From positions 1-40,710 of IMG/VR virus record IMGVR_UViG_3300037475_000123: a stretch of 40,710 bases of DNA; one strand, given 5' to 3'. This stretch comes from a virus. The notes beneath the pieces are model-generated. The model saw nothing but the letters and a program-made list of their open reading frames with translations. It was not told the origin of the DNA and ran no database searches. Both the position numbers and the translations under genes were made by a program. The first letter of the stretch is position 1; each line of letters begins with the position of its first letter. Below are positions 11,188 to 29,425 of this stretch, one piece after another.

Positions 11188-11763
11188 TTATATTTGCTTT
11201 GAAACAGTTTTTTTTGCGTAGAAATGATTATAAACGCGCAGAATTGCCAAGAAGAAGTCGTCGTCAATTGGATATTCATATAGCTTTGGAGCTTTGCCGT
11301 TCTTATTGAGATGCAAGAAAATTACTTTTTTGATGTCGTAGCCGGCTTTTTTAGCGAGCATCGCGTAAGCAGCTCCCTGAGCAGGCCAGGTCTTCGACGG
11401 ACGAGAAGAAGTTTTGATGTCAACAATAGCCAACCCATCTTTATCAGCAACAATGAAATCAAGTTGTCCCGTGATAAGTAAGTCGTCTTCCCAGAATCTT
11501 TTCTCCATTTCGACAATGGTTTGACCAGCCTCCCACCAATTTTTAAATGATTCAACATATCCCCACGTCTCATCTTCAACCCCAATTTCACCTAAACCAG
11601 CCACAATTCCTTCGCAAATATTGTGCACTTTCGTGCCTCTCTCCGCTGCATAAGCCAATACGTCAGCATCAATCTTTTCCAACCCAGAGAACGGATATAA
11701 AACGCTTGTGACGCGCAAATAATCTTCCCTCTGTTTTTCTATAGATATTTCATTCTGTATCAT
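11188..11763 (-). CDS. PD-(D/E)XK exonuclease (RecB/Cas4-like fold)
   Basis: The nuclease core is visible: His47 in GTKVHNICEG, Asp102 in GQLDFIVA, Asp116 and Lys118 in AIVDIKTS, and Gln129 with Tyr133 in AQGAAYA. This is the H-D-DxK-Q..Y order of RecB-type phage exonucleases. It probably resects double-stranded ends to make the single strands used by RecT. It is the first gene of the leftward recombination operon. It is preceded by a promoter candidate at 11818-11846 and an operator-like inverted repeat at 11794-11807. The 191-residue length is normal for compact phage members. Confidence 0.85.
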   Translation of the reverse strand: MIQNEISIEKQREDYLRVTSVLYPFSGLEKIDADVLAYAAERGTKVHNICEGIVAGLGEIGVEDETWGYVESFKNWWEAGQTIVEMEKRFWEDDLLITGQLDFIVADKDGLAIVDIKTSSRPSKTWPAQGAAYAMLAKKAGYDIKKVIFLHLNKNGKAPKLYEYPIDDDFFLAILRVYNHFYAKKTVSKQI

Positions 11764-11793
11764 GTAGAGTACTCTTAAGATTGATAGAGAAGG

Positions 11794-11807
11794 GTTTACG
11801 TGTAAAC
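11794..11807. promoter_or_regulatory. Operator candidate GTTTAC-N2-GTAAAC
   Basis: A 6-bp inverted repeat with a 2-bp spacer lies 31 bp upstream of the exonuclease start and just downstream of its predicted transcription start. It shares the TTTAC...GTAAA half-site with the repeat at 12118-12137, so one dimeric repressor might bind both. Confidence 0.5.
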
Positions 11808-11817
11808 ACTTTATTTC

Positions 11818-11846
11818 AATATAGACAATTGAAGGTTAAAAAACAA
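11818..11846 (-). promoter_or_regulatory. Leftward promoter for the recombination operon
   Basis: Read on the minus strand: -35 TTGTTT (11846-11841), a 17-bp spacer and -10 TATATT (11823-11818), placing the start near 11811, about 48 bases before the exonuclease ATG. The spacing is ideal for sigma-70. A palindromic site lies immediately upstream (11853-11865) and an operator-like repeat downstream. Confidence 0.55.
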
Positions 11847-11852
11847 AGAGCG

Positions 11853-11865
11853 AACATTCAATGTT
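11853..11865. promoter_or_regulatory. Perfect palindrome AACATT-C-AATGTT
   Basis: A 13-bp perfect palindrome located 7 bp upstream of the leftward -35 element; it is suited to an activator or repressor dimer. Confidence 0.4.
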
Positions 11866-11910
11866 TTTAGATAATCAAAGACTTACTGAAATTAAATAAA
11901 ATGAAGAATT

Positions 11911-11941
11911 CTGTAGATTTTTAAAATTAAATTATCTACAG
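11911..11941. repeat. Inverted repeat CTGTAGAT / ATCTACAG
   Basis: Perfect 8-bp arms (11911-11918 and 11934-11941) flank 15 AT-only bases. It lies between the exonuclease promoter and the terminator of the candidate RNA. It could be an operator pair or a hairpin; no function can be assigned. Confidence 0.4.
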
Positions 11942-11948
11942 TGAAGAC

Positions 11949-11989
11949 AAAAAAAGAAAAAAACCCTTAACACCTAAGTGCTAAGGGTT
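11949..11989 (-). terminator. Strong intrinsic terminator, leftward
   Basis: On the minus strand AACCCUUA-G-CAC, loop UUAG, GUG-U-UAAGGGUU forms a 12-bp stem (11989 to 11962) followed by a long U-tract (11961-11949). The central G-U pair and the U-tract exist only in the leftward transcript; the plus strand would have an A-C mismatch and no U-tract. It would end transcription coming from about 12120. Confidence 0.8.
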
Positions 11990-12120
11990 ACATTTTGGGA
12001 AATGTGATATAGAGATAACTGATATACAGAGATAAATGCAGGTTGTAGTCTCGACCAAAAGACTAACAACAAAAAAACCTTAAGCCGGTTATGCATTCAT
12101 CCTATATCACTCTTCCCAAT
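11990..12120 (-). ncRNA. Candidate structured non-coding RNA (rod-shaped, leftward)
   Basis: The minus-strand transcript can fold into a nested rod. Outer stem: 12119-12102 with 12012-11995, 17 of 18 paired. Middle stem: 12100-12092 with 12040-12032, 9 pairs. Inner stem: 12070-12061 with 12050-12042, 9 pairs with one bulge, and a 10-base loop. Large asymmetric internal loops lie at 12091-12071 and 12031-12013. Wobble pairs in the outer and middle stems pair only in the leftward strand, and an intrinsic terminator follows directly, giving an RNA of about 165 nt. There is no open frame. The overall shape recalls 6S-like RNAs, but no family match is claimed. I saw no convincing sigma-70 promoter upstream. 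The alternative is a DNA-level element in the divergent control region. Confidence 0.6.
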
Positions 12121-12137
12121 TTTACAATAGTAAAATT
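12118..12137. promoter_or_regulatory. Operator candidate AATTTTAC-AATA-GTAAAATT
   Basis: Perfect 8-bp arms with a 4-bp spacer, located at the predicted 5' end of the leftward RNA and 34 bp before the rightward gene at 12171. It shares TTTAC/GTAAA half-sites with 11794-11807. Confidence 0.5.
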
Positions 12138-12144
12138 ACACAAT

Positions 12145-12159
12145 GTGCATATATTGCAC
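12145..12159. promoter_or_regulatory. Operator candidate GTGCA-TATAT-TGCAC
   Basis: A 15-bp inverted repeat directly upstream of the ribosome site (GGAG at 12160-12163) of the gene at 12171. A protein bound here would block rightward transcription or initiation. Confidence 0.45.
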
Positions 12160-12170
12160 GGAGAGCGTAT

Positions 12171-12440
12171 ATGGATAGATACTCAATCACCTCCCAAGAG
12201 ATACTAGAAAGGATCTCTCGTCATTGCCCAGAAGCACTTTCGGTTTATCTTCAGTGTATAAATCGTGCTGATTCTGATGGCATGGTTCATTTTTCTCGAG
12301 ATACGATCGATGTTGAAATGTCTGAAAACTGGCACCCATTCAAAAATAATCTCAAAAAGCTTGCCCGTGAAAATCTTCTTCAGTGGCTGCCATTTAACAA
12401 TGGAATTACAGTCACATTGGAGCAGCACGATGACGAGTAA
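12171..12440 (+). CDS. Winged-helix-like DNA-binding protein, 89 aa
   Basis: The pattern CPEALSVYLQCINRADSDGMVHFSRDTI, then KNNLKKLARENLLQW and two short strands (ITVTLEQ), fits a small winged-helix domain: helix, HTH, beta wing. It is the first gene of the rightward replication cluster, just downstream of two operator-like repeats, so it may be an autoregulated early regulator or a replication accessory protein. The family is not named with certainty. The stop overlaps the next gene by 11 bases. Confidence 0.7.
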   Translation: MDRYSITSQEILERISRHCPEALSVYLQCINRADSDGMVHFSRDTIDVEMSENWHPFKNNLKKLARENLLQWLPFNNGITVTLEQHDDE

Positions 12441-13136: not shown

Positions 13137-14084
13137 ATGACAGATGAAGAATTAGAAGTCAACAATGGCGATTCAAAAAGACCAACGATTATTCGAGTGG
13201 TACACAATCGCGAGAATCCATTTGTCCAACTTAATAAGGAAGCTCTCTGGGATTGTAGTCTTTCTTTAAAAGCTACTGGGTTATGGGCACGTTGCATGTC
13301 GCGCCCTAATGATTGGACGTTTAACATACGCGAGCTTCAAGGAAAATGCAAAGAAGGACGAAAGGCTATAGACGCAGCAATGCATGAACTTATTGAACAT
13401 GGGTATGCTTGTCGGCTAGAGTTTAGCGGAAAAAAAACAGACGGAAAATTTATTGGGAAAATTATTGAATATATATTCTTTGAATTTCCAGCTTCCGAAG
13501 GGGAAAAGCTTAAACAATTGGAAATATTCAAAAAATCTTTCCATGATTCCGTAAATGGAAATTTCCGTATCGCAAATTTCCGAAAGGACGAACTACTAAT
13601 AAAGAGTTCTACTCAAACAGAAAACTTTCAAGAAGATATATCTCCTCCTATACCTCCTCATTCGAGGCTTAAAGAAAAAGAGCCAGCTAAAGCTGTCGAG
13701 GAGAGAGATAAATCTAATCTCAATCTTTTTTCTGAAGAAGGTCTTCGAATCGCAGATGACATGATTGCCGCTTTGAAAGAAGTCAAACCAACATACAAAG
13801 CGCCTAAGTTAACGACTCAAATTTTAGTTGAAATCGACAAAATGATCCGGCTTGACTCTAGAGATCCCAAGTTAATTTGCCTTGTTTTTCGATGGGCGGT
13901 TGCTGATTCGTTCTGGTCTGACAAAATGTTTAAACCTAATCCAGCAAAATATCTCCGTGAGAAATTTGACCAACTTGAAATGAAAATGAACGCAAAACCA
14001 CCTCAAAAAGAAAGGAAATTTGCTCCCTGCTCTAACACCCAAGCAGCTGTTCAAGCGCTTAAAGACAAGAAGGGGGCAATTTGA
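13137..14084 (+). CDS. Phage replication initiation protein (helix-turn-helix, lambda O-like)
   Basis: Residues 25-110 form the winged-helix start domain typical of phage replisome organisers: FVQLNKEALWDCSLSLKATG, then WTFNIRELQGKCKEGRKAID, then AMHELIEHGYACRLEF. A low-complexity linker (residues ~125-205) follows, and then a helical C-terminal domain (residues ~205-315) likely to contact the helicase loader. The next gene is a DnaC-like ATPase with a 1-base stop/start overlap, giving an O/P-like pair. DNA encoding the linker carries repeats and AT-rich tracts that could be the origin. Confidence 0.8.
   Translation: MTDEELEVNNGDSKRPTIIRVVHNRENPFVQLNKEALWDCSLSLKATGLWARCMSRPNDWTFNIRELQGKCKEGRKAIDAAMHELIEHGYACRLEFSGKKTDGKFIGKIIEYIFFEFPASEGEKLKQLEIFKKSFHDSVNGNFRIANFRKDELLIKSSTQTENFQEDISPPIPPHSRLKEKEPAKAVEERDKSNLNLFSEEGLRIADDMIAALKEVKPTYKAPKLTTQILVEIDKMIRLDSRDPKLICLVFRWAVADSFWSDKMFKPNPAKYLREKFDQLEMKMNAKPPQKERKFAPCSNTQAAVQALKDKKGAI
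13443..13590 (+). other. Candidate replication origin inside the initiator gene
   Basis: GGAAAATTTATTG (13443-13455) is followed at once by GGAAAATTATTG (13456-13467), then an AT-rich run. GGAAATTTCCG at 13557-13567 (its first ten bases palindromic) is repeated as AAATTTCCG at 13574-13582. Lambdoid origins sit in exactly this linker region of the O gene. The repeats are few and short, so this remains a hypothesis. Confidence 0.35.
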
Positions 14085-14908
14085 TGGATTTTAAAAACGC
14101 TGCCGATATTGCAAGAAATCAATTTAAACCAAGTAATTTACCAGTCATGTGTGATTATGTCCTTGGACCTTGGGGAGAAATCAAGAAAGAGCCCTTCAAT
14201 TCGCTGGAATACAAGTGCGAATTTTGTGGGGGAGATGAATATTTTACTCCTATGTTTCAAGGGAAAAAGATTTGGCAATGTTCAAGACTCGATTGCGCGG
14301 TCATGGAGGTGAATAAAATGCCAAGAGCTACCACCACACAGGTTATACCTCAAAGAGCGCTAGAATGGCCGTTATTTTGCGAAATTCACGGTATTGGAGA
14401 TGGCAACCTCAATGTTAAGTTTGAAGATGTGAATTTACCGCCGGCTCAATTGGATTATTTACGCAAATTTGCTGCTACACCAAAAAACATTCTTGTTATG
14501 CAAGGTGATTTTGGAACGGGGAAAACATTTGCTGCCCTTGGAGCGTGTGAAATGTTTACCAGAAAAAGCACTTCAGCAATTTTTTTAACTCAGAAAGAGT
14601 TGGTTAAAAAATGGCTTGAAACATTTAATTCAAAAGAGTTGAATACTTTTATCCAAAAAATCACCACTACAACTCTTTTGGTTGTTGATGATTTTGGGAC
14701 TGGAGAGATGACGCCAGCATTTCTAAGCTTCTTTATGGATTTAATTAATAGCCGAATGCAATGGACAAACAGAGGGACTATTATAACAACCAATTTAAAT
14801 GATGATAAAATTGGTGAATTTTGTGGTGATGCTTTTGTCGACAGATTATTAACGGGTCAATTCTTTGAATTTACTGGACCTTCAAAGAGAAAGAAAAATA
14901 TCTTATAG
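14084..14908 (+). CDS. DnaC-like helicase loader, AAA+ ATPase with N-terminal zinc ribbon
   Basis: Residues 45-71 carry a zinc ribbon (Cys45, Cys48, Cys66, Cys71). The ATPase core has Walker A GDFGTGKT (141-148), Walker B LLVVDDFG (198-205) and a sensor-like TIITTNL at about 232-238, with a late Arg (DRLL) as arginine-finger candidate. DnaC/IstB-type proteins load the replicative helicase. It directly follows the initiator gene; the ATG overlaps its stop by one base and a strong AGGGGG lies upstream. No phage helicase is seen, so it presumably recruits the host DnaB. Confidence 0.85.
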   Translation: MDFKNAADIARNQFKPSNLPVMCDYVLGPWGEIKKEPFNSLEYKCEFCGGDEYFTPMFQGKKIWQCSRLDCAVMEVNKMPRATTTQVIPQRALEWPLFCEIHGIGDGNLNVKFEDVNLPPAQLDYLRKFAATPKNILVMQGDFGTGKTFAALGACEMFTRKSTSAIFLTQKELVKKWLETFNSKELNTFIQKITTTTLLVVDDFGTGEMTPAFLSFFMDLINSRMQWTNRGTIITTNLNDDKIGEFCGDAFVDRLLTGQFFEFTGPSKRKKNIL

Positions 14909-15563: not shown

Positions 15564-16179
15564 TGGAGTGCCTTTAGCCCAAGCACGTATGAGAATGTTT
15601 AATCGGGGTGGAATACCCCGTGTATACGACCCTCTTTCGAAAGAAAAGAATGTAATCAAAGGGCAAATAAAGATGAAATTCAAAGGGAATAAATTAAAAC
15701 ACCCTCGAATCTCTTTCTTGTTTCTTATGCCAATTCCAAAAGCGACGCTCAAGAGAGATTTAGCACTCTATGGTAGTGGACTGCTAAAACACGAGAAGAA
15801 ACCGGACACGGACAACTTAATTAAATTATTTTTGGATTGTATGACAGGAACTGTTTTTGAAGATGACGCGTGCGTGATGCTTGGCTCGTGCAATAAAGTC
15901 TATCACCCCGAGCCTAAAACAATTATCTTTATGCATGAAGAAGGGCATACTCTTGAACCGGAACATCTTGAGCCTTGGGTCTACAACGCCCTTTTCGATG
16001 TAGAATCCTCAAAATACTGGTTTTCTGAAACGCCTTTCCTGCCCGATTCAAACACCCTTCCTTCGCAAGCTCTACGCAGATCGACTGATACGACATACCC
16101 ACATCAAACAGCCTACACATCAAGTCCAGAGTTTCAAGCTCTTGAGCATTATCTAAGAGAATACCCGGCTTCAATGTAG
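15550..16179 (+). CDS. rusA: RusA-family Holliday-junction resolvase with extended C-terminus
   Basis: Core RusA features: an N-terminal strand (MIVIDGVPLAQARMR), the catalytic-type motif KPDTDNLIKLFLD (residues 84-96) and FEDDACV (residues 103-109). RusA dimers cut four-way junctions and help clear recombination intermediates before packaging. The family is normally about 120-140 residues; this frame runs to 209. The extra C-terminal ~65 residues lie antisense to the end of the serine recombinase gene and read like a fortuitous open frame (Ser, Thr and Pro-rich), so the extension may be a recent fusion by DNA rearrangement. Confidence 0.85.
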   Translation: MIVIDGVPLAQARMRMFNRGGIPRVYDPLSKEKNVIKGQIKMKFKGNKLKHPRISFLFLMPIPKATLKRDLALYGSGLLKHEKKPDTDNLIKLFLDCMTGTVFEDDACVMLGSCNKVYHPEPKTIIFMHEEGHTLEPEHLEPWVYNALFDVESSKYWFSETPFLPDSNTLPSQALRRSTDTTYPHQTAYTSSPEFQALEHYLREYPASM

Positions 16180-16687
16180 TACCGTTGCCGTCTTTATTTT
16201 TGACAGCAACTAGACTATTCATGTCTAATGATTTCCCATACGGCATTTGAATAGTGGTTCTTTCTCCACGCGATACTTTTACATCCAGCTTTTCTTTAAC
16301 ACGTGCTCTTAGAGTTTTTGTTTCTTCAAAAGCCATTCCCGCATAAACACCCAACATTATTCTGTTATTAATTCCAGGTTGCTCTACTAAAAGAATCTCT
16401 GCATTTCTTTTCCTTAACTCATCAACCAAAATGTTTATCTCGGTGGGATTACGAGTTATTCTATCTACACGCATGGCAACTAAGATATCCCCGCTTCGAA
16501 TCGCTTCTTTCGCCTCTAAAAACCCTTTTCGTTTTTCAATAGATTTCTTAGATGTTATGCTATCACTGAACACTAAATATTGAAATGAGCCACCATTTCT
16601 AGACTTTAAAAACTCTAAACAGTGGTGTAATTGTGTGCTTTCGTCTTGTTTTTTCGTTGAGACTCTGAGATAAATTACGTATTTCAT
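15929..16687 (-). CDS. Serine recombinase (resolvase/invertase family)
   Basis: The catalytic N-terminal domain begins with MKYVIYLRVSTKKQ: Arg8 and nucleophile Ser10. The distal Arg motif is MRVDRITRNP (residues 72-81). The linker helix and a recombinase DNA-binding part follow (SICVELAKEGCLNRAGKAFQKTSILRIL). At 252 residues it is larger than Tn3 resolvase and shorter than large serine integrases. Roles could be multimer resolution of a circular prophage, DNA inversion or integration. It is the last gene of the leftward early operon, immediately after a small membrane protein, and overlaps rusA by 251 bp tail to tail. Confidence 0.85.
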   Translation of the reverse strand: MKYVIYLRVSTKKQDESTQLHHCLEFLKSRNGGSFQYLVFSDSITSKKSIEKRKGFLEAKEAIRSGDILVAMRVDRITRNPTEINILVDELRKRNAEILLVEQPGINNRIMLGVYAGMAFEETKTLRARVKEKLDVKVSRGERTTIQMPYGKSLDMNSLVAVKNKDGNGTTLKPGILLDNAQELETLDLMCRLFDVGMSYQSICVELAKEGCLNRAGKAFQKTSILRILHRKGRCRPKAQDVPVQEYALLHA

Positions 16688-24257: not shown

Positions 24258-25382
24258 ATGGATAAAAAATATATAAAAGTGAGCTCCTTAAACCACATGA
24301 CATTACATATTGACTATTCAGGGGAAAAAATAGGACGTGTTTTGATTATAGAGGCATTGCCTCGTCTTAAATGGAACTGTCTTTGTGATTGCGGGAATTA
24401 TTTCGTTAGCTCCTCTCAAAGTTTTAAAAGGGGTGAAACTTTTGAATGTAACCCATGTAGGTTTGAAAGAAGGAGAGGAGTTGACTTAACCGGTCGAAAA
24501 TTTGGTAGATGGTCTGTTAAAGAAAGAAAAATAGACTCTAACGGAAAAACAAAATGGTCTGTGCTTTGCGATTGTGGTAATACAGGCTTGGTTTCCACCT
24601 CCAGTTTAGGAAAGAAGGGAAGATCGATGAGTTGTGGGTGCCTTGGAAGAAAACAAAAATCCAAAAGAGCTAATTCTACTCTTTATCCTCCAGAACATTT
24701 AACTTCTGTAACCGACTTATATTGCATTAGAGCACGAATCTTACAAGGGTGTTATAATCCGAACAATGTAGCTTATAATAAATATGGAGCCATAGGAGTT
24801 ACAGTTTGTGATTTATGGAGAAATAGCGCTAAAGACTTCCATGATTGGTGTTTAAAAAACAAATGGAAGAAAGGGGATGTAGTTCATCTTAAACGCGGAA
24901 AGACCGTTTTTTCTCCTGAGAATTGCGCTATTTTACATCCATCCGAAAGTCAGAGAGAACAACTAGCAAAACGTATTACTATAGACGGTGAAAACTTAAA
25001 CGTCTATGAATGGTCAGAAATTTCAGGAATACCAAGACACACAATCTTAGACAGGCTTTGCAAAGGTTATTCTGAATATGAGGCTGTCTTTTGTAAAAGA
25101 CATAAAAATTCAGGAAAAAAATCCTGGCCAGACGAAAAAATAAAAGCTCTATATGAGAGTGGATTATCTATGTCAGATATAGGTAGAAATTTAGGGATTA
25201 ATTACCAATCAATCTCCAAACGACTGAAGGCGATGGGTGTTGAGATCGATAAAAACGGAACTTCTAGAAGGAAATATCCTTTAAAAGCATGTAATACATG
25301 TAATACTGAGTTCCATCCCAATAATTCTAGGGCTAAATTTTGCTTAGAGTGTAGAGAGAAAAAACAAAAGGTAACAATATGA
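24258..25382 (+). CDS. Composite HNH-type endonuclease with zinc ribbons and HTH
   Basis: 374 residues with several modules. Two zinc-ribbon-like repeats come first (CLCDCGNYFV...CNPC and VLCDCGNTGL...SCGCLG; the IGRVLI and GRKFGRWSV starts are typical). An HNH-type core follows (RARILQGCYNPN, YGAIGVTVCDLWRNSAKDFHDW, then SPENCAIL). A NUMOD-like helix comes next (ISGIPRHTILDRLCKGYSEYEA), then an HTH (MSDIGRNLGINYQSISKRL) and a C-terminal CxxC...CxxC finger. This is the build of phage free-standing homing endonucleases. It is odd that it heads the parA operon, overlapping parA by 4 bases. Confidence 0.75.
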   Translation: MDKKYIKVSSLNHMTLHIDYSGEKIGRVLIIEALPRLKWNCLCDCGNYFVSSSQSFKRGETFECNPCRFERRRGVDLTGRKFGRWSVKERKIDSNGKTKWSVLCDCGNTGLVSTSSLGKKGRSMSCGCLGRKQKSKRANSTLYPPEHLTSVTDLYCIRARILQGCYNPNNVAYNKYGAIGVTVCDLWRNSAKDFHDWCLKNKWKKGDVVHLKRGKTVFSPENCAILHPSESQREQLAKRITIDGENLNVYEWSEISGIPRHTILDRLCKGYSEYEAVFCKRHKNSGKKSWPDEKIKALYESGLSMSDIGRNLGINYQSISKRLKAMGVEIDKNGTSRRKYPLKACNTCNTEFHPNNSRAKFCLECREKKQKVTI

Positions 25383-26023
25383 TTTTGGTTATTGGTGGAA
25401 TAAAAGGCGGGTCTGGAAAGACCACCTTAGCAACAAATCTAGCAGTAATGCGATCAAATGCGGGCAAGAAGGTCTTGCTGGTGGACGCAGATGAACAGCG
25501 TTCAGCTTCAACTTTCGCTAGTCAGAGAGAAGCGTCTGGCATTAGCACCTCTTGGTTTACAATTCAATTGGTTGGGCGAAGCGTCCACACTCAGTTGATG
25601 AAATTCAAAGCTGACTTCGACGACATCATTGTTGATGTTGGCGGAAGAACAACTGATTCTCAAGAGTCTGCTCTATTAGCAGCAGACATGTTTCTAATAC
25701 CCTTCAATCCAGCAGCTTTTGATGTATGGACATTGCCAGACGTTAGGAAATTAGTGAGTAGTAAGAGCCTTTCAAATGAGAATCTGAAGAGCTATGCTTT
25801 GGTTAACCGGGCAGACCCAAAAGGGGCTGATACAGAAGAGACAATTTCAATCTTAAATGAATGTGAAGAGTTTCATACTCTAAGATTCACTATTGGAAAT
25901 CGTAAGACTTTTCGTTCTGCAACCAGCGAAGGATTGGCGGTCACAGAGATGAAAATACAAGATAAAAAAGCCATTCAAGAGATTGGACAGTTGTACGAAT
26001 ATGTGTATAACTGGTATATATAG
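25379..26023 (+). CDS. parA: ParA/MinD-family partition ATPase
   Basis: Deviant Walker A KGGSGKTT (residues 9-16), the signature LLVDADEQRSA (about 33-43) and DDIIVDVGGRTTD as Walker B region. At 214 residues it has the size of small plasmid ParA (type Ib) proteins without an N-terminal HTH. Such ATPases form gradients on the nucleoid and segregate plasmids with a DNA-binding partner. Two ribbon-helix-helix genes follow at once, as expected for type Ib systems. It overlaps the HNH gene by 4 bases. Confidence 0.85.
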   Translation: MILVIGGIKGGSGKTTLATNLAVMRSNAGKKVLLVDADEQRSASTFASQREASGISTSWFTIQLVGRSVHTQLMKFKADFDDIIVDVGGRTTDSQESALLAADMFLIPFNPAAFDVWTLPDVRKLVSSKSLSNENLKSYALVNRADPKGADTEETISILNECEEFHTLRFTIGNRKTFRSATSEGLAVTEMKIQDKKAIQEIGQLYEYVYNWYI

Positions 26024-29349: not shown

Positions 29350-29425
29350 GCCGTATTAGCTCAATTAGTAGAGCGCTATTGAAATTAGACAGTAGAGGTC
29401 GTTGGTGCAATTCCAACATACGGCT
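29350..29425 (+). tRNA. tRNA-like gene with expanded anticodon loop
   Basis: Acceptor GCCGTAT/ATACGGC (7 pairs), D-stem GCTC/GAGC with loop AATTAGTA, T-arm GTTGG-TGCAATT-CCAAC, variable AGGTC. The anticodon stem CTATT/AGTAG (one G-U) encloses ten bases (29381-29390) rather than seven; with one more G-C pair the loop is eight. The only U33-like context gives anticodon UAG (Leu CUA codon), but the class-I body is not leucine-like. CCA is not encoded. Functional decoding is uncertain. Confidence 0.7.

Follow-up and report, generated by a model that had tools for sequence, protein, structure and literature searches.

The element located upstream of the replication operon in the analyzed phage DNA is, with a probability of roughly two in three, a switch that works by countertranscript (antisense RNA) and resides in the 5′ leader of this operon. 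The analyzed DNA, hereafter the window, is the IMG/VR virus record IMGVR_UViG_3300037475_000123 (40,710 bases). Computation revealed the architecture of the element, the positions of its promoter and terminator in a group of related phages, and an alternative pairing of the leader that covaries among these phages. The coordinates of the features are given in Table 1.

Table 1. Positions of the switch components and neighbouring genes in the window.
Feature	Position	Strand	Basis and remarks
Exonuclease, PD-(D/E)XK	11188–11763	−	PHROG/Pfam; start of the exonuclease–recT operon
Candidate rightward promoter of the replication operon	11914–11942	+	TAGATT, 17 nt, TACAGT; assigned by position, weak
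Intrinsic terminator of the predicted antisense RNA	11949–11989	−	Fold; relatives have terminators at the same place
Predicted antisense RNA	11957–12092	−	About 136 nt; 5′ end placed by the promoter prediction, 3′ end by the terminator
Alternative rightward site	11967–11994	+	TTAACA-16-TACATT; from the scan
Upstream arm ("pre-emptor")	11995–12040	+	Pairs with 12092–12119
Dual-use arm	12092–12119	+	Pairs upstream (rod) or, as 12097–12115, downstream with the initiation region
Candidate antisense promoter	12099–12127	−	−35 TTGTAA 12127–12122, 17 nt, −10 TAGGAT 12104–12099; start at about 12092
Translation initiation region	12160–12179	+	Shine–Dalgarno GGAGAG 12160–12165, ATG 12171–12173; maskable by the arm
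89-aa gene, first in the replication operon	12171–12440	+	21-sequence alignment A3; predicted target of the switch
O-like initiator	13137–14084	+	Replication operon
DnaC-like loader	14081–14908	+	Replication operon

To the left of the element, the minus strand carries the exonuclease gene and a RecT-like gene; to the right, the plus strand carries the 89-aa gene, an endonuclease VII-like gene and the genes of the O-like initiator and the DnaC-like loader, in this order. The exonuclease was assigned by PHROG and Pfam. The original prediction, made from the sequence alone, had placed the element between recombination and replication operons. It was also said to contain no reading frame, and the list of open reading frames includes none of at least 50 aa within this stretch. 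A comparison of the region with GenBank phages at the DNA level returned only short chance matches and no near match.

Folding of the minus strand of positions 11949–12120 recovered all the stems named previously. The outer stem consists of 8 + 9 pairs (12119–12112/11995–12002 and 12110–12102/12004–12012), the middle stem of 10 pairs (12101–12092 with 12031–12040) and the inner hairpin of 5 + 6 pairs (12070–12059 with 12042–12052), while the terminator is a 12 bp hairpin (11989–11978 with 11962–11973) followed by a U tract (A-rich 11949–11961). The minimum free energy was −63.7 kcal/mol versus −32.7 ± 3.8 kcal/mol for shuffled sequences (z −8.3); the fold is thus 31 kcal/mol below the shuffle mean, and none of 200 shuffles was as stable. 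The plus strand was nearly as exceptional (−52.4 kcal/mol, z −7.9), so the fold of the window by itself does not choose the strand. The minus orientation had been argued from three C/A positions (12112/12002, 12098/12034 and 11981/11970) that form G-U pairs on the minus strand. These pairs are present in the window as described, but the argument does not extend to the rod across the 20 phages compared below, where 24 pairs are G-U wobbles on the plus strand alone and 30 on the minus strand alone. Another method of counting gave 13 versus 5 in favour of the plus strand, and the wobble asymmetry of the rod was dropped as evidence for either strand. A caution for similar work is that strong folding of one strand pointed to the wrong RNA until the relatives were compared.

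A search with the 89-aa protein revealed 7 viral contigs, a search with its alignment revealed 23, and rescanning with a still deeper alignment returned the same 23. The sequence upstream of the gene was extracted from all of them. The rod and the leftward terminator were found in the same place in every contig except a group of three identical loci (L038–L040); the rods of L010, L013, L035 and L037 are weaker. The element of L032 is the same as that of L033, which leaves 19 distinct elements and, together with the window, a set of 20 phages. In these 19 relatives both the leftward terminator, a hairpin with a T run, and a promoter-like site are in place. An exact-motif scan with AACTTTACTCTGGACA was also tried and gave 14 matches, among which the element is present only in L014 (the L009 contig); the others were judged to be chance matches by reading the sequence.

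The rod sequences are nearly unalignable, with a mean identity of 0.53 versus 0.49 for shuffled sequences in pairs of phages whose gene is 74% identical. Despite this divergence, the arms of each rod fit their own partner (−24.3 kcal/mol versus −11.0 kcal/mol with the arms of other phages, z −11.8, 20 phages). What these phages retain is thus the base pairing. The loci L038–L040 represent a natural deletion: upstream of 3001 they are without the rod, the antisense promoter and the terminator, and the exonuclease gene directly adjoins. The rodless L038 retains an ATGACA-N17-TAGTGT site beside the gene, and its preservation in these phages is as expected if this site drives the operon. In several relatives (e.g., L009, L010 and L007), a flanking inverted motif, AACTTTACT ... 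AGTAAGTT, was noticed by eye; its halves seem, also by eye, to change jointly (AATTTACT ... AGTAATT), as the halves of an outer stem or of a paired protein-binding site might. In L007, a series of short near-repeats (GTCCATGTGTCCATTTGTCC) has been inserted between the rod and the terminator.

Promoters were scored against shuffled sequences using a sigma-70 matrix of textbook consensus frequencies, which may not be those of the hosts. The leftward promoter-like site of the relatives (typically TGGACA or TAGACA, 17–18 nt, TAnnAT) begins 15–26 nt before the gene start, and the 5′ arm of the rod is made up of its −35 box and spacer. Collectively, such sites were significant (Stouffer z 6.2), and individually they were so in only 7 of the 20 phages. 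In the window, the dual-use arm read on the minus strand carries the spacer and the −10 box of the candidate site, which has the best minus-strand score between 12220 and 11950 (6.4) and is not significant alone (0.215 of shuffles were as good). The original prediction had noted no good promoter at 12121–12170; that was the wrong interval to look in, and the best leftward promoter-like site lies inside the rod, at 12127–12099. With the promoter inside the 5′ arm, the predicted leftward RNA would begin within the rod, would not include that arm and could not form the rod. Its predicted length is about 80–190 nt in most relatives, and in the window it is complementary to the mRNA leader.

These data change the reading of the transcript. 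The original prediction was a free-standing minus-strand rod RNA of about 165 nt, either 6S-like or a phage regulator. A leftward, self-terminating and regulatory RNA is retained from it, whereas the full rod is not. A free-standing rod RNA would explain the highly stable minus-strand fold. It would not explain why the relatives' promoter sits within the 5′ arm and why the sequence is not conserved, and it would have scant room before the divergent gene, since the −35 box begins so close to the start of that gene. In addition, the 6S covariance model of Rfam had no match in the window at the gathering threshold and was absent from the permissive matches in 11700–12300. Neither threshold gave anything relevant, so that the element is new to Rfam as had been supposed, and the 6S-like reading is not supported. 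Taken together, a free-standing rod RNA appears extremely improbable. Control of the exonuclease–recT operon by termination had been suggested as well; this was not supported. The likely target of the predicted leftward RNA is the replication operon, and the terminator sets the small RNA apart from exonuclease–recT.

Rightward promoter-like sites were found in the relatives just left of the terminator (TTGACA/ATGACA/TGGACT, 17 nt, TACTTT/TACGGT and similar). Collectively they, too, were significant (Stouffer z 4.5), the window's own site being weak and not significant. If transcription of the replication operon starts in this position, the entire rod would be part of the mRNA leader, and it is this rightward transcript that the full rod fits. 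In L008, L031, L033 and other relatives, a rightward WIRMPE-type reading frame, absent from the window, is located left of the terminator, and its last codons and stop fall inside the leftward terminator hairpin; part of the conservation of the rightward sites could therefore be coding. In the window, an inverted repeat at 11912–11941 (CTGTAGAT ... ATCTACAG) spans the candidate rightward promoter and could be an operator. That the rod can form in full solely in the rightward transcript would suit a structure that serves this mRNA only, as a 5′ stabiliser or a protein-binding site, with an incidental leftward RNA; the gene product is DNA-binding-like and could regulate itself. The positions of the leftward promoter and terminator are conserved across the set, which makes such a purely mRNA-directed role highly unlikely.

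The leader of the window can form two structures that share one arm. The rod helix joins the dual-use arm to the upstream arm, which lies wholly within the span of the predicted antisense RNA. In the OFF-state fold, the dual-use arm pairs instead with the initiation region and covers both GGAGAG and ATG; the two helices are mutually exclusive. In the 20 phages, the arm paired with its own start region at −13.9 kcal/mol versus −11.3 kcal/mol with the start regions of other phages, and none of 20,000 permutations reached this difference (p < 5e-5), although this and the following p-values presume too much independence for related phages, even if kinship, on the other hand, makes the off-diagonal pairs more alike. 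The cognate signal sits at the start codon and the beginning of the reading frame (first codons, z −5.2), while the Shine–Dalgarno part alone was not above chance in the 20 phages (z −0.5). The controls gave z −0.1 for the upstream arm and z +0.4 for the wrong strand; the inner region gave z −1.7, and the 3′ arm of the antisense RNA gave a weaker signal (z −2.7).

When the part covered by the antisense RNA was removed, 18 of 20 phages had a start region that was less accessible with the native arm than after shuffling of the arm (p 2e-5), and pairs between the arm and the start outnumbered the shuffled-arm null, again in 18 of 20 (p 7e-6). The accessibility of the Shine–Dalgarno sequence alone gave a weak signal in this comparison. 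A direct ON/OFF comparison of accessibility (20/20) was replaced by the shuffled-arm null because added sequence lowers accessibility in general. In the best ungapped helices between the arm and the initiation region, wobble pairs favoured the plus-strand RNA by 16 to 5, a bias due partly to one recurring position. At equilibrium, the start region in the full leader of the window is predicted to be only 23% accessible, so the ON state of the window needs co-transcriptional folding.

Two further explanations were weighed against these pairings. The first is an element acting at the DNA level, in which a promoter-containing inverted repeat folds in single-stranded DNA and serves as a single-strand promoter or complementary-strand origin, like F-plasmid Frpo and M13 ori(−). 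A promoter within a long imperfect hairpin adjoining replication and recombination genes would be expected of it, as would the lack of strand bias in the rod pairing. Such an element does not predict the conserved leftward terminator or the complementarity to the start codon, which moreover is missing on the wrong strand, and we consider it very unlikely. The second is ordinary antisense inhibition through mRNA cleavage or a direct ribosome block, in the style of lambda OOP or pMV158 RNAII, without a structural switch. Overlapping transcripts of this kind have identical anatomy, and the partial complementarity of the 3′ arm of the antisense RNA to the initiation region agrees with it; the match of the leader arm to its own start (z −5.1) and the coevolution of the rod arms are left unexplained, so that this explanation is rated as unlikely.

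Under the preferred reading, a switch in the leader, the rightward RNA would contain in order the complement of the terminator, the upstream arm, the inner hairpins, the dual-use arm, and the ribosome binding site of the 89-aa gene with its start codon. Being transcribed before the dual-use arm, the upstream arm would capture it; the rod would form, the start region would be free and translation would be on. The promoter embedded in the dual-use arm would give rise to a short RNA that ends at its own terminator and can pair with the leader as far as that arm. By binding the upstream arm, this RNA would free the dual-use arm to mask the start-codon region, and less of the replication genes would be translated. 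That both RNAs are produced, that the antisense RNA is the one to switch translation off, and what role this plays in the phage, we infer from the arrangement of these parts. The switch may keep replication down in lysogens or at a late stage of infection, and possibly limit the copy number of an extrachromosomal prophage; copy-number control is a guess.

In plasmids, control by antisense RNAs that act on a leader with two states is textbook knowledge. As in the pT181/pSK41-type systems, an antisense RNA with its own promoter and terminator is predicted opposite the leader in the 20 phages (the window promoter being weak), and two leader folds that exclude each other, because both use the same arm, were found in the window and in the set. 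RNAI of pT181 controls repC by countertranscript-driven attenuation, mainly through transcription termination (PMC5703833). The likeness lies in an antisense RNA that can pair with the untranslated leader, in the competition of a pre-emptor and an initiation-region stem for one arm, and in antisense binding that favours the masking stem. The difference lies in the termination of transcription, since a terminator-like U run after the masking helix was not seen in the phage sequences read. RNAI of pSK41 (about 83 nt) binds the rep leader and brings about a stem in which the ribosome binding site is hidden, while transcription is not attenuated (PMC5703833). The action predicted here is similar in that a leader-bound antisense RNA induces a stem masking the initiation region, at the level of translation. 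However, pSK41 is a staphylococcal RepA_N plasmid, not a phage family, and in the phages the predicted masking falls mainly on the start codon and the masking arm itself contains the antisense promoter.

Among phages, an antisense RNA is said to control the replication gene of the P1 lytic replicon (Heinrich et al. 1995, cited in PMC9948254); by the title of the cited work, the likeness is that of a phage replication gene with an antisense RNA, and the 89-aa protein has only weak fold similarity to RepL-type proteins. The lambda OOP RNA (77 nt) is short, self-terminating and opposed to the cII coding sequence (PMC3349717). The RNA predicted here is likewise a short self-terminating RNA directed against a rightward operon beside replication genes, but it opposes an untranslated two-state leader rather than a coding sequence. 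Extrachromosomal mycobacteriophage prophages have RNA-based origins, at which RNA is needed to initiate replication (PMC7157519). They also rely on a non-coding RNA for prophage replication, whereas the RNA of the window would, by prediction, act as a repressor of replication genes that encode proteins. An earlier report on this phage family was not found in the open-access literature, which is weak evidence of novelty.

A phage family with such a switch before its replication operon would show plasmid logic governing phage DNA replication, and its 20 natural variants can be used to study how these switches diverge while keeping both pairings. The rod identity close to the shuffled level, the gene identity of about 74% and the strict own-partner pairing also bear on a more tentative idea, which we regard as doubtful: the divergent rods might define RNA incompatibility or immunity types, in which a resident antisense RNA silences a superinfecting phage with the same rod and not one with a different rod. 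As part of this idea, a single arm might have three functions at once, those of antisense promoter, half of the rod and mask over the start codon. The same picture would arise by ordinary drift if pairing were the only constraint. If the rods do define incompatibility, they would provide an RNA-based route to superinfection control.

The 89-aa protein had no match in one genome scan, in GenBank phages or in plasmids. Modeling using AlphaFold2 led to a predicted winged-helix domain (pLDDT 82), and the nearest structures in Foldseek were phage replisome organizers, RepL/O-like proteins, HTH proteins and the CodY winged helix, all with weak E-values. The protein is predicted to be a winged-helix DNA-binding protein. 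Judging by gene content, extrachromosomal maintenance of the prophage is possible. Similarity of TerL to "plasmids" was dropped because the inspected record has an integrase and a lambda-like gene order. The host could not be assigned from TerL either, the single 83% match, to a short contig of a Bacteroidales MAG, being too weak.

Several other genes of the window were recorded. A ParA-like partition ATPase is encoded at 25379–26023 (+) (phrog_164, E 4e-39), and its close homologues were found only in the L031 and L036 records (2 of 25 related records), which indicates that partition genes come and go within the phage family. A tyrosine integrase was present in 1 of the 25 related records, in a search that did not include the window. 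A small serine recombinase of the resolvase/invertase type (252 aa) is encoded near the replication genes at 15929–16687 (−); it was found in the window and in 22 of the 25 records. In addition, the window contains a tRNA gene at 29350–29425 (+) (Rfam tRNA, 49.7 bits).
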